From: an uncultured Bacteroidaceae bacterium
Lineage (GTDB): Bacteria; Bacteroidota; Bacteroidia; Bacteroidales; Bacteroidaceae
Reading direction: 5' to 3'
Assembly (NCBI GenBank): GCA_905234745.1
Contig: CAJOJD010000011.1
Coordinates: 1 to 39,212 of the forward strand
DNA length: 39,212 nucleotides
Each line of letters opens with the position of its first letter. Within the stretch, counting starts at the first letter, position 1. The notes below the pieces were generated by a model that made no database searches, was not told the DNA's origin, and worked only from the letters and a program-made list of their open reading frames with translations. Position numbers and translations under genes: made by a program. Shown here one piece after another: positions 4,371-8,127 of this stretch.

Positions 4371-5429
4371 TTATGGTTTCTTCCAATCGAAAGAGGTTAC
4401 GGTATCATCCCAACCTACAATCTCAAACCTTGCATTGGGTTGTTCCTTACTATCGTCCAGATAGTTCACGAACTTATAGACTATCTTGGTGGCCTCATCG
4501 ACCCAATAATCGGCCTTTACCACAAAGTCATAGTCGTAGCGGGTGCATTCAACGCCCAGAATTTCCTGCTTATCGGATGTAGCCTCTCCGTACTTCTTGC
4601 AGTTGCCTGCAGGTACACCGGCATCAAACAGGACATTGATCTCGGAGTTCTTGGCATAACCGGCAAAGTGCAGGTAGCTGTCATCACCGCTTTCAAGCAG
4701 GTTGACCCAATGGGCTTCATCATAAGATTCACTGTGATCTGTTGTCTTTCCGTATGCCTTGAGTGTATTTCCGTTCTTGTCAAACTCACAGTACAAATAT
4801 ATGATATATCTGGGTGAGACATTCTTGTAGAACCATTCGTTGCCCAGTTTGATAAGGGTTGTGGTTTCCTCTTGATTGTTATATGATGGCTGATGAGTCA
4901 TCTCTATCCTTACGTTTTGGGGGAATGTGGCGGCCAGCACCTTGGTATTTATGGGCTCGTAAGTCTGCGTGGTATTGTTGTTGCCTCCGTTATCATCGCC
5001 ATTGTCACTACCGACCTTGGTGAGAGTGTAGGTTTCATTATCGTAGGTAAATGCCATTGTATTATCCTTAATTGTGAATGTGGCTGTACCCATTGCTGTG
5101 CCGTTAGTCAGGTCCTTACACTCGATGGAGCCCTGGCCATCGGAATAGGTATAAGATCCTCCCATAGCCTTTGCAGTGGGTGTTCCGCCCTCCTGCTTAT
5201 TGATGCTTACTGCTGCTGACACGTCATTTATAAAACTCACAAACACCTGAAAGAAACCGTTCTGGCCGATGGTGCCGACACGATATCTCCACTGTGTACT
5301 TACCAACGACTCGACCTTTTGGGGTTCTTCATTGTTAATCTCATCATCACTATCCTCGCTGCAGGATACAAATGCTGTCGCAAACAGAGCGACCATCATC
5401 ATTGCGAATACATTCTTTCTCATTTCCAT
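4371..5429 (-). CDS. Lipoprotein of unknown function, probably surface-exposed
   Basis: A 352-residue protein (350 if Met3 at 5423 is used) with a lipoprotein signal ending FVSC (Cys23). The cysteine is followed by SEDSDDE, an acidic run resembling the Bacteroidota lipoprotein export signal that sends lipoproteins to the outer surface. An N-terminal region (about 35-145, beta-rich in appearance) is joined by a Gly/Asn/Asp-rich linker (DNGDDNGGNNN) to a C-terminal region (about 165-350) rich in aromatic and charged residues. I do not recognise either domain. The gene lies 21 nt downstream of the small LuxR-type HTH gene on the same strand and is probably co-transcribed with it. It may be the output or the sensed partner of the divergent regulators, which is inference. 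Confidence 0.8.
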   Translation of the reverse strand: MEMRKNVFAMMMVALFATAFVSCSEDSDDEINNEEPQKVESLVSTQWRYRVGTIGQNGFFQVFVSFINDVSAAVSINKQEGGTPTAKAMGGSYTYSDGQGSIECKDLTNGTAMGTATFTIKDNTMAFTYDNETYTLTKVGSDNGDDNGGNNNTTQTYEPINTKVLAATFPQNVRIEMTHQPSYNNQEETTTLIKLGNEWFYKNVSPRYIIYLYCEFDKNGNTLKAYGKTTDHSESYDEAHWVNLLESGDDSYLHFAGYAKNSEINVLFDAGVPAGNCKKYGEATSDKQEILGVECTRYDYDFVVKADYWVDEATKIVYKFVNYLDDSKEQPNARFEIVGWDDTVTSFDWKKP

Positions 5430-5450: not shown

Positions 5451-5666
5451 TTATATCATGTTACTGGCCATTGCCTTAACCAAGAGTTCGCCGGTAGTGG
5501 CGGCATCAAACTTGATCTTGAGGCGCTGGCGGTACCACTTTATGGCGGGCAGACTGAGATGCATTATATCGGCTATCTCAGTACTCTTTTTACCTACCGC
5601 CATAAGACATAGAATCTGCTCTTCTTTTGCGGACAGAGTTATCTGGTTATTGGCTGTCTGTTCCAT
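5451..5666 (-). CDS. Stand-alone LuxR-type HTH protein (71 aa)
   Basis: A very small protein consisting almost only of a GerE/LuxR-type DNA-binding domain. LSAKEEQILCLMAVGKKSTEIA forms the first helices (quoted in part: EEQILCLMAVGKKSTEIA), followed by a recognition-helix region with AIKWYRQRLKIKFDA. It has no receiver, sensor or membrane segment. About 28 of 62 positions are identical to the C-terminal domain of the divergently transcribed TPR protein at 5811, including IKW, RQRL, KFDA and the spaced T, E, L, KA residues, so the two probably share an origin. It is followed after 21 nt by the lipoprotein gene. It likely binds DNA on its own or competes with or pairs with the TPR regulator for the same site; that is inference. 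Compact length and the conserved motif favour a real gene. Confidence 0.8.
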   Translation of the reverse strand: MEQTANNQITLSAKEEQILCLMAVGKKSTEIADIMHLSLPAIKWYRQRLKIKFDAATTGELLVKAMASNMI

Positions 5667-5720
5667 ACCGCTAGGTTGTTATTTGCGATGCAAAACTCTG
5701 AATTCCAGATGATTTAAGAA

Positions 5721-5736
5721 TTATACTAAAGTATAA
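5721..5736. promoter_or_regulatory. Perfect dyad, candidate operator between divergent LuxR-type genes
   Basis: TTATACT-AA-AGTATAA is a perfect 7+2+7 palindrome in the 144-bp region between the two divergent LuxR-type genes, 54 bp from one start and 74 bp from the other. LuxR/GerE domains usually bind as dimers to dyads of about this size. The site is visible; binding is inferred. Confidence 0.5.
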
Positions 5737-5762
5737 AAATGACCTTCTGAGGGAGAAATTTC

Positions 5763-5803
5763 ACCCCTAAAAACCCCTGAAAGCGGTGATTTTGCTACTT
5801 TTG
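5763..5803 (+). promoter_or_regulatory. Tandem 10-bp repeat and -7 box before the TPR-LuxR gene
   Basis: ACCCCTAAAA (5763-5772) is followed directly by ACCCCTGAAA (5773-5782), occupying the place of a -33 element. TACTTTTG (5796-5803) matches TAnnTTTG. The box ends only 7 nt before the ATG at 5811, so the transcript would be leaderless or nearly so. The repeats could be an activator site. Confidence 0.5.
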
Positions 5804-5810
5804 TGATGTT

Positions 5811-7067
5811 ATGAGAAAAGAATATATCATTTCAACCTTGCTGCTGTTTTGCGTGACTATGGCACACGCACAATACAACGACCACCGTGACCGGAAACTA
5901 GATTCACTGGAGAATGTGGTGGCAGGATGGACGCCTGAGCAACTGGAGGAACAGCCGTTTGAGACCAAGGCTGCCGTCTGCAAGGCCTACTCTGAACTAA
6001 TGTACGGATATGAGCGTATCAATCCGGACCGTTCCATGTATGCCGCACGCAGAGCATATACGATTGGAAACGAGTTAGGATCTCTGTACCAGCCATATCT
6101 GGCATCCAAGTTCATAGGCCAGCTTTATTACAATAAGGAGAGATATGACAGCACTATATACTACTACAATGTGTCATTAGGTTTCCTGGAGCGTATGACT
6201 GCAGGTGAAGCCGGACCGGACAATCCGGACGGCTATCCGCGGGAGAAGATTGATGATGCGGCATCAAGCCTGTACGGCAACATAGGTAACCTGTATTACG
6301 AGATTGACTCCATTGACCGGGCTATGGACTATTACGCCAAAGCCAGACAGATATTTGACAAGTATGACTGGAAAGTGAGCAATGCAATCCTTTGGCATAA
6401 CATGGGTGACATTTGGACGGAGCAGGATGAGTTTGACAAGGCGATTGAGTGTTATGACAAAGCCATTGGTTATGGTAAGGCGGCCGATGACTCACTCTGG
6501 GTTGCATCACCCAAACTGAGCCTTGGAGCACTCTATATGAAACAAGGCCGCACTACCAAGGCAATGCGTTACCTGAAAGAGGCCGATGAGTATTACTCCG
6601 TACATCAGGACCAAGAGTATAACGACCGCATAGCCACTCTTGATGTAATGGGACAGGCGCTGCGAGTACAGAAGAGACAAACTACGCTACTGGCCGCCAG
6701 TATGGGAATACTGGTTATAGTGCTGCTGATTCTGCTGTTTATGAGCCGCAGGATAAACCGACTGAACAAGGAGAATACCGGTGCCGATGAAGCAATTGAT
6801 GAGGCTCTGAATGAGATTGAACAGCGCACGTATACTCCCAAGAGCAGATATAAGGAGAAGATTGAACTGACCGAGCGTGAGGCCGAGGTGCTGCCGCTTA
6901 TTGCTTCAGGTATGACCAGCAAGGAGATTGCACAGAAAATATGCCTGACGGAGCAGACCATCAAGTGGCGCAGACAGAGGCTGATGGCCAAGTTTGACGC
7001 AAGAAACACAGCCGAAATGCTTACCAAGGCAAGAGAATTAGGGTTCTTTGGCCCTGCGCACGCTTAA
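5811..7067 (+). CDS. Membrane TPR protein with C-terminal LuxR-type HTH (one-component transmembrane regulator)
   Basis: A 418-residue protein. An N-terminal signal peptide ends near AHA (residue 20). Residues about 35-275 form tetratricopeptide-like repeats, for example SLYGNIGNLYYEIDSIDRAM and NMGDIWTEQDEFDKAIECY. One membrane span (LLAASMGILVIVLLILLFM) lies at about 290-312 and is followed by a charged linker. A LuxR/GerE domain (ELTEREAEVLPLIASGMTS, then TIKWRRQRLMAKFDA) lies at about 350-412. The topology implies periplasmic TPRs sensing a protein or peptide and a cytoplasmic DNA-binding tail held at the membrane. Its HTH is closely similar to the divergent 71-aa protein. A hairpin at 7074-7090 lies just past the stop. 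Similar TPR-TM-LuxR proteins occur in Bacteroidota; the ligand is unknown. Confidence 0.85.
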   Translation: MRKEYIISTLLLFCVTMAHAQYNDHRDRKLDSLENVVAGWTPEQLEEQPFETKAAVCKAYSELMYGYERINPDRSMYAARRAYTIGNELGSLYQPYLASKFIGQLYYNKERYDSTIYYYNVSLGFLERMTAGEAGPDNPDGYPREKIDDAASSLYGNIGNLYYEIDSIDRAMDYYAKARQIFDKYDWKVSNAILWHNMGDIWTEQDEFDKAIECYDKAIGYGKAADDSLWVASPKLSLGALYMKQGRTTKAMRYLKEADEYYSVHQDQEYNDRIATLDVMGQALRVQKRQTTLLAASMGILVIVLLILLFMSRRINRLNKENTGADEAIDEALNEIEQRTYTPKSRYKEKIELTEREAEVLPLIASGMTSKEIAQKICLTEQTIKWRRQRLMAKFDARNTAEMLTKARELGFFGPAHA

Positions 7068-7194: not shown

Positions 7195-8127
7195 ATGGAA
7201 AAGAAAAAGAATAAGGAAAAACAAGTGGAGCTTATAGCAAATATCCGTAAACCTGAAGAAACTGATACTGCATTAAGCCAACACTCTATCGAGAAACTAA
7301 TCATCACCATCAGAGGAGAACAAGTTCTTATAGACCAAGATGTTGCCAAACTATATGGCGTAACGACAAAACGTTTGAACCAACAAGCCAACCGCAACGC
7401 CGCAAGATTCCCGCTTTCTTTTCGTTTCAAATTGACTAAAGAAGAACGAGACGAGGTGGTTGCAAATTGTGACCACCTAAGAACTTTGAAGTTTAGTCCC
7501 ACTTTACCTTTTGCTTTTACAGAGCAAGGTATAAGCCAACTATCATCGGTCATTCATAGTCAGCAGGCCATTGATACAAGCATCAAAATCATGAATGCTT
7601 TCGTTGCCATGCGTCGTTTCATGTTACAAAATGCCAGTATATTAATGAGAATAACTCATCTGGAAAAACATCAGATTGAAACAGATGAAAAAATAGATAT
7701 GATTCTTGATAAGATGGAATCAAACTTACCTAGCCAACTACCCGAACAGGTATTCAATAATGGTTGCACATGGGATGCGTGGACATACATGTCGGACCTA
7801 ATAAGAAGTGCCAAGAAACGGGTAATACTGATAGACAATTATGTCGATGACCGTACACTATTGCTCCTTGACAAGCGATTAAAAGGAGTTGAAGCCACCA
7901 TCTATTCCCGTTATAACGAATCGTTATTGACCGATATTCAAAAGCACAACAGCCAGTATAGTGAAATCAAGTTCATACAACTCCCCCACCGTAATCATGA
8001 CCGTTTTCTAATCATTGATGAAGACATCTATCTTCTTGGTGCAAGTGTGAAGGATATGGGCATCGGTCTATGCGCCATCACAAAAATGATCATATCACCC
8101 GACGTTATACTACAAATGCTAAAATGA
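7195..8127 (+). CDS. ORF6N-domain DNA-binding protein with PLD-like C-terminal region
   Basis: A 310-residue protein. An ORF6N domain spans about residues 33-140: the characteristic LIDQDVAKLYGVTTKRLNQ, RNAARFP, and FAFTEQGI. A helical stretch follows (about 150-180, EKHQIETDEKIDMILDKME). The C-terminal part (about 195-305) reads like a phospholipase-D-type fold: KKRVILIDNYVDDRTLLLL, and NHDRFLIIDED, which resembles an HxKx4D motif with Arg for Lys. Only one such motif is visible. ORF6N proteins are typical of phages and integrated elements and are widespread in Bacteroidota chromosomes. This gene is clearly more AT-rich, with more A/T-ending codons, than its neighbours, suggesting later arrival, though I see no integrase or att site. 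It may bind DNA to regulate or defend; the function is unknown. Confidence 0.88.
   Translation: MEKKKNKEKQVELIANIRKPEETDTALSQHSIEKLIITIRGEQVLIDQDVAKLYGVTTKRLNQQANRNAARFPLSFRFKLTKEERDEVVANCDHLRTLKFSPTLPFAFTEQGISQLSSVIHSQQAIDTSIKIMNAFVAMRRFMLQNASILMRITHLEKHQIETDEKIDMILDKMESNLPSQLPEQVFNNGCTWDAWTYMSDLIRSAKKRVILIDNYVDDRTLLLLDKRLKGVEATIYSRYNESLLTDIQKHNSQYSEIKFIQLPHRNHDRFLIIDEDIYLLGASVKDMGIGLCAITKMIISPDVILQMLK

Follow-up and report, generated by a model that had tools for sequence, protein, structure and literature searches.

A divergent gene pair in Bacteroidales encoding a predicted membrane TPR-LuxR regulator and a stand-alone LuxR-type HTH protein, with a conserved putative operator

Introduction

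The whole GerE protein of Bacillus amounts to about one LuxR helix-turn-helix (HTH), and RcsA and BglJ are second LuxR-type proteins that heterodimerise with RcsB at altered sites. In Porphyromonas gingivalis, the FimS-FimR system has a periplasmic TPR sensor and controls surface structures (PMC11053733). SusR-type membrane regulators of Bacteroides combine a periplasmic sensor with a cytoplasmic C-terminal HTH and activate adjacent genes; for SusR, direct repeats spaced by 67-77 bp are the predicted sites, and its DNA-binding domain does not significantly resemble other families (PMC3878776).

We analysed a stretch of 39,212 nucleotides from an uncultured Bacteroidaceae bacterium (the window). 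An earlier note, whose coordinates and domains proved correct, had described in it a TPR membrane protein with a LuxR-type HTH (TPR-LuxR) and, divergently encoded, a 71-aa HTH protein linked to a lipoprotein gene. The locus is of the FimS-FimR kind in that the periplasmic TPR sensor is homologous (tblastn) and shares the N-terminal motif Y-x-D-H-R...D-S-L-E common to TPR kinases; residues 155-266 match the NCBIfam FimS model with an E-value of 1.6e-8, but with a score far below the cut-off of that model. It differs in having the DNA-binding domain fused to the sensor, without a histidine kinase or receiver. As in SusR, sensor and HTH lie in one membrane protein, but the window has a 16-bp inverted repeat and a GerE-type HTH, SusR being compared by its published description. 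The small protein is of the length of stand-alone LuxR-type HTH proteins such as GerE (70-75 aa; the PedR model has 74 positions); unlike these, it has as its partner a membrane protein with a paralogous HTH and the same presumed operator. It shares with RcsA and BglJ the status of a second LuxR-type protein alongside a main one, whereas the sites of the window module are symmetric. No description of a TPR-LuxR/small-HTH pairing was found in the literature searched, most subscription journals lying outside its scope.

Results

Domain organization of the TPR-LuxR protein

The gene on the forward strand and the parts of its product were located as follows.
5811..7067, + strand: TPR-transmembrane-LuxR one-component regulator, 418 aa (Pfam, AF2 model, 43 homologues)
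5811..5873, + strand: signal peptide, residues 1-21 (sequence inspection; model helix 2-17)
6687..6743, + strand: transmembrane segment, about residues 293-311 (inspection and model)
6858..7046, + strand: cytoplasmic LuxR-type HTH, residues 350-412 (PF00196; model helices 355-409)

Pfam identified TPRs and a C-terminal GerE domain at residues 353-404 (E 1.6e-12, 47.3 bits, cut-off 23.5). In the AF2 model (pLDDT 88, pTM 0.65), a long helix formed by residues 270-336 connects the TPR array with the membrane segment and with the linker that leads to the HTH. The signal peptide would place the TPR part in the periplasm, and with this predicted topology the sensor, the transmembrane segment, and the DNA-binding domain all belong to one chain, the layout of a one-component membrane transcription factor (Pfam, model, and inspection). 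A fold search matched only generic TPR proteins (LGN, Rap), and DUF6377 (PF19904) scored 21.4 bits, under its curated cut-off of 36.7. With Pfam, neither window protein showed the autoinducer-binding N-terminal domain of acyl-homoserine-lactone LuxR receptors and LuxR solos, and no histidine kinase or receiver domain was detected in them. An ORF6N-domain protein with a weak C-terminal PLD-like match is encoded directly downstream (7195-8127, + strand); this gene was not seen next to the loci of close relatives.

The stand-alone HTH protein and the output genes

Two genes are read in the opposite direction.
5451..5666, - strand: small HTH protein, 71 aa, first gene of the output operon (LuxR/NarL-type HTH, PF00196)
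4371..5429, - strand: output gene, 352-aa lipoprotein (lipobox by inspection; homologues adjoin the TPR gene in 13 related loci)

Residues 10-61 of the small protein match the GerE/LuxR HTH (PF00196; E 4e-9, 36.4 bits, cut-off 23.5), Pfam showing nothing else above cut-off, and the protein retains the entire LuxR fold, last helix included. Its close similarity to the tail of TPR-LuxR, asserted earlier, was confirmed by BLASTP (28/58 identical, 48%, E 5e-14); IKW, RQRL, and KFDA are common to both HTHs. Omega values of about 0.05-0.19 between relatives (pairs with usable dS) point to a translated and selected gene, and core residues are invariant across distant homologues. The two proteins account for two of the three GerE matches in their own genome, a draft that is about 80% complete. 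The sole other LuxR HTH there ends a hemerythrin-like protein (L029 3091-3891), and genome G018 has a similar hemerythrin-like protein beside a separate LuxR gene (L028 5360-6641). In other Bacteroidales, genes for stand-alone LuxR-type HTH proteins of 70-86 aa occur in unrelated neighbourhoods (L131 3419-3679, L133 853-1065, L134 4098-4346); these were rejected as instances of the module because their arrangement differs.

The lipoprotein ORF begins 21 nt past the stop of the small ORF and by inspection contains the lipobox FVSC followed by acidic residues. Its C-terminal ~200 aa form the conserved part of the family. Between this and the lipid anchor lies an extra domain of about 110 residues (~38-145), present in the window only and missing from all 12 homologues compared. 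The structure model of the lipoprotein was poor (pLDDT 48). In nearly all readable loci the gene after the small HTH gene encodes an exported protein, as had been proposed for a surface lipoprotein; its family, however, varies among loci and includes the window-type lipoprotein, another small lipoprotein, OmpA-family proteins, large lipoproteins, and an LRR/Big_2 protein. The output would be located at the cell surface. Where the small gene is lacking, it is usually the gene for the exported protein that is divergent from the TPR gene. At L069 (1-3992), a lipoprotein gene sits between two TPR-LuxR genes of the same orientation.

Conservation of the module and loss of the small gene

Among 37 genomes of the genus, the window's own genome, G014, G026, and G033 encode close orthologues of the small protein, each beside orthologous TPR-LuxR and lipoprotein genes, and the three-gene order is kept in the latter three while the outer neighbours differ. 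G016 has a distant version, in which the TPR-LuxR protein is 38% identical and is accompanied by a small HTH and by an exported protein of another kind; G018 has a TPR-LuxR gene without a small partner. Scanning GTDB contigs with the TPR-LuxR alignment yielded 67 loci, mainly from rumen and gut Bacteroidales. The window's family comprised 44 TPR-LuxR loci (43 plus the window), 42 of them with upstream DNA. An order-wide HMM search with the small HTH returned mostly ordinary LuxR response regulators and was left out of the co-occurrence counts.

By HMM, 23 of the 42 loci, across two clades, have a short HTH gene divergent from the TPR-LuxR gene; the short gene is absent from 18, is cut to a 35-residue remnant at L077, and has its reading frame disrupted near the end at L089. 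It is intact in L071, a remnant in L077, and lacking in L065 and L066; the TPR upstream regions of these four loci are nearly the same. Operator and output persist where the small gene is absent or broken. About half of the loci lack an intact copy, so the small gene is not essential to the switch, and the idea that it is an obligatory part had to be abandoned. The series of losses, together with the divergent output in loci lacking the small gene, thus indicates a core of TPR-LuxR and a divergent exported protein, with the small HTH as an accessory. The proposal of a self-contained module was upheld by the conserved three-gene arrangement in relatives, and, judged by sequence, the module is real and selected.

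A putative operator at a fixed distance from the output promoter

The intergenic elements of the window are the following.
5721..5736, no strand: putative palindromic operator, TTATAC-N4-GTATAA (TTATACTAAAGTATAA), 16 bp, invariant in close loci
5691..5698, - strand: -7 box GAGTTTTG for the small/lipoprotein operon; exactly 30 bp separate the operator from the end of this box
5796..5803, + strand: -7 box TACTTTTG for the TPR-LuxR gene, at 15 bp from its ATG

All 12 fixed bases of the palindrome are invariant in 21/21 loci of the close clade, those without the small gene included, compared with a mean top-base frequency of about 0.69-0.71 in the flanking columns, and in all 21 the palindrome lies 89-91 bp before the TPR start. 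An exact match occurs as a single copy in 19 of the 21 genomes (the window's own genome, G026, and G033 among these) and in two copies in G014 and in G440; the reversed-pattern control gave counts of 0-2. Distant loci have CCACCC-N4-GGGTGG or close variants, in one or two copies and rare genome-wide; no exact CCACCC-type match was found in G016, G018, and G440, where the sites have mismatches.

The Bacteroidetes -7 box has the consensus TAnnTTTG (PMC7366714). On the small/output strand, the gap between the palindrome and the TTTG of this box measures exactly 30 bp in all 21 close loci and in 16 of 21 distant ones, and other spacings from 20 to 40 were found in two loci or fewer each. The distance between palindrome and TPR start, by contrast, is variable in distant loci, where it can be as short as 45 bp or reach about 150 bp and more, which argues that the palindrome serves the small/output promoter. 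With the 30-bp spacing, the palindrome centre falls at about -42 relative to the point where the small/output transcript is expected to begin, which would be an activator position overlapping the -33 region. Because the palindrome is invariant even without the small gene, TPR-LuxR is its most economical binder. On the other strand, the -7 box of the TPR gene stands 15 bp from the ATG in 19/21 close loci and 13-14 bp in the other two, which suggests a leaderless or nearly leaderless mRNA; in Bacteroides, 5' UTRs of <10 nt are uncommon (PMC7366714).

Eighteen paralogous regions from the same genomes were used as a held-out test, and 14 of them had a usable upstream region. A near-perfect palindrome was present at 30 bp in 9/14 and at 31 bp in 4/14 (L139, L142, L143, L146), several of the held-out regions being near copies of one another; L147 showed no palindrome in its usable upstream region. 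In three of the 31-bp cases (L139, L142, L146) a T-run follows the palindrome, which may therefore be a terminator. An alternative arrangement was observed in L137, L139, L142, L143, and L146, with a stand-alone HTH gene, other genes, and the TPR-LuxR gene all on one strand and palindromes 30-31 bp ahead of the TTTG of the first promoter. Genome G433 contains four modules with four operators (TTATAC, CCCCCC/GGGTGG, CTATCC/GGATGG, and CCACAT), and G438 (L072, L089) and G440 (L074, L097), which have both operator types, contain one locus of each kind.

Co-variation of recognition helices and operators

HTH positions that we take to be the counterparts of the NarL base-reading residues were examined. 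In the close clade, with the TTATAC operator, TPR HTHs have KWRRQ and small HTHs KWYRQ; in the distant clade, with CCACCC-type sites, both kinds have K/RWYRK (rarely KWYRR or KWYKK). This co-variation of the recognition helices of both proteins with the operator suggests that the two read the same operator, so that the earlier claim of a shared DNA specificity is probably right. The co-variation may reflect one evolutionary event, because the short HTH tree leaves the alternatives unseparated: AU tests rejected neither grouping of the close-clade small and TPR HTHs (p-AU 0.37), and by this tree the small HTH could derive either from the tail of the TPR protein or from a response regulator.

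Two-component relatives

At six distantly related loci (L101, L103-L106, L108), the same type of TPR sensor, here with a C-terminal kinase part, is followed by a receiver-LuxR response regulator; Pfam found HisKA_3/HATPase_c in L103 and L104. The divergent neighbour in L104 belongs to the OmpA family, which also supplies the output in many one-component loci, and the L103 upstream region contains, by inspection, a secreted-protein start resembling that of the LRR protein of L085. The 30-bp spacing recurs in L103, where the palindrome is accompanied by a TAATTTTG box; L104 contains a pair of perfect palindromes, with TTTA at 30 bp. Given these relatives with similar outputs and palindromes, the one-component modules appear to descend by rewiring from two-component systems with a TPR sensor, as in FimS/FimR, or at the least to be homologous to them; the change would have run from two-component to one-component. 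The earlier note knew of no named system of this form; by this homology the module does not stand alone.

Discussion

Gene order, conservation, the putative operator, its fixed spacing from the promoter, and helix co-variation together define the module at the sequence level. We consider it reasonably probable that TPR-LuxR is a signal-gated membrane one-component activator of a single adjacent exported-protein operon, and that the small HTH is an accessory feedback regulator acting at the same operator. The periplasmic TPR array would sense a ligand or protein. A dimer of the cytoplasmic HTH would bind the palindrome, which is at about -42 in the divergent promoter, and activate the operon of the small HTH and the exported protein. 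Once made, the small HTH would bind the same palindrome as a soluble dimer and, by positive feedback, amplify the signal received by the scarce membrane protein. Palindrome binding, activation, the sign of the feedback, and the ligand are parts of the model that we infer; activation is preferred to repression because of the site position only. In LuxR-type activators the isolated HTH domain often suffices for activation, and for this reason, together with the activator position of the site, amplification by the small HTH is favoured over competition.

The opposite sign of feedback is almost as probable. The small HTH would then displace the membrane activator from the palindrome and limit or pulse the output. 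It is the DNA-reading part without a sensor, the co-varying recognition helices predict the same operator for it, and it has been lost repeatedly with the output operon kept, as a brake could be. However, a bound HTH that has the whole LuxR fold and a site in an activator-type position would be expected, from knowledge of LuxR/GerE, to activate. The earlier designation of the small protein as a competitor thus covers a single sign of feedback out of the two with which the sequence is compatible.

It is unlikely that the small HTH acts as a heterodimer partner of TPR-LuxR in the manner of RcsA/BglJ-RcsB, altering its affinity or target. The two HTHs are homologous and co-conserved, but operator symmetry, which is perfect in all 21 close loci and is retained where the small gene is absent, argues against such a partnership, and no second, asymmetric site was found. 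Still harder to sustain is the view of the small gene as a decaying HTH duplicate with no present function: the truncated, frame-disrupted, and absent copies, the last beside a nearly identical TPR upstream region, are what such decay would leave, yet the low omega, the invariant core residues, and the presence of the gene in more than one clade argue against it. Least credible is that the palindromes, instead of being operators, terminate or attenuate transcription, a reading that GC-rich versions with T-runs after them (notably L139, L142, and L146) might favour but that the AT-rich close-clade palindrome without a T-run and the fixed -7 box spacing contradict, and that was rejected for divergent loci, where the palindromes lie upstream of both promoters and are transcribed from neither.

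Returning to the one-component activator with accessory feedback, a wider and more doubtful extension is that an expanded family in rumen and gut Bacteroidales provides insulated switches with private operators, several per genome, in which TPR-LuxR would hand over to a bare HTH that locks the operon on, making the exported proteins bistable.

Predicted operators and target genes are here assigned to a recurrent Bacteroidales regulator family of which the searched papers contain no description. Each copy of the module apparently works through a private switch site of its own in the DNA. The role of the stand-alone HTH protein becomes testable with one reporter, and single genomes offer ready-made pairs of insulated LuxR-type DNA specificities. 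Two-component loci, one-component loci with a bare HTH, and one-component loci without it form a natural series for the rewiring of signalling.
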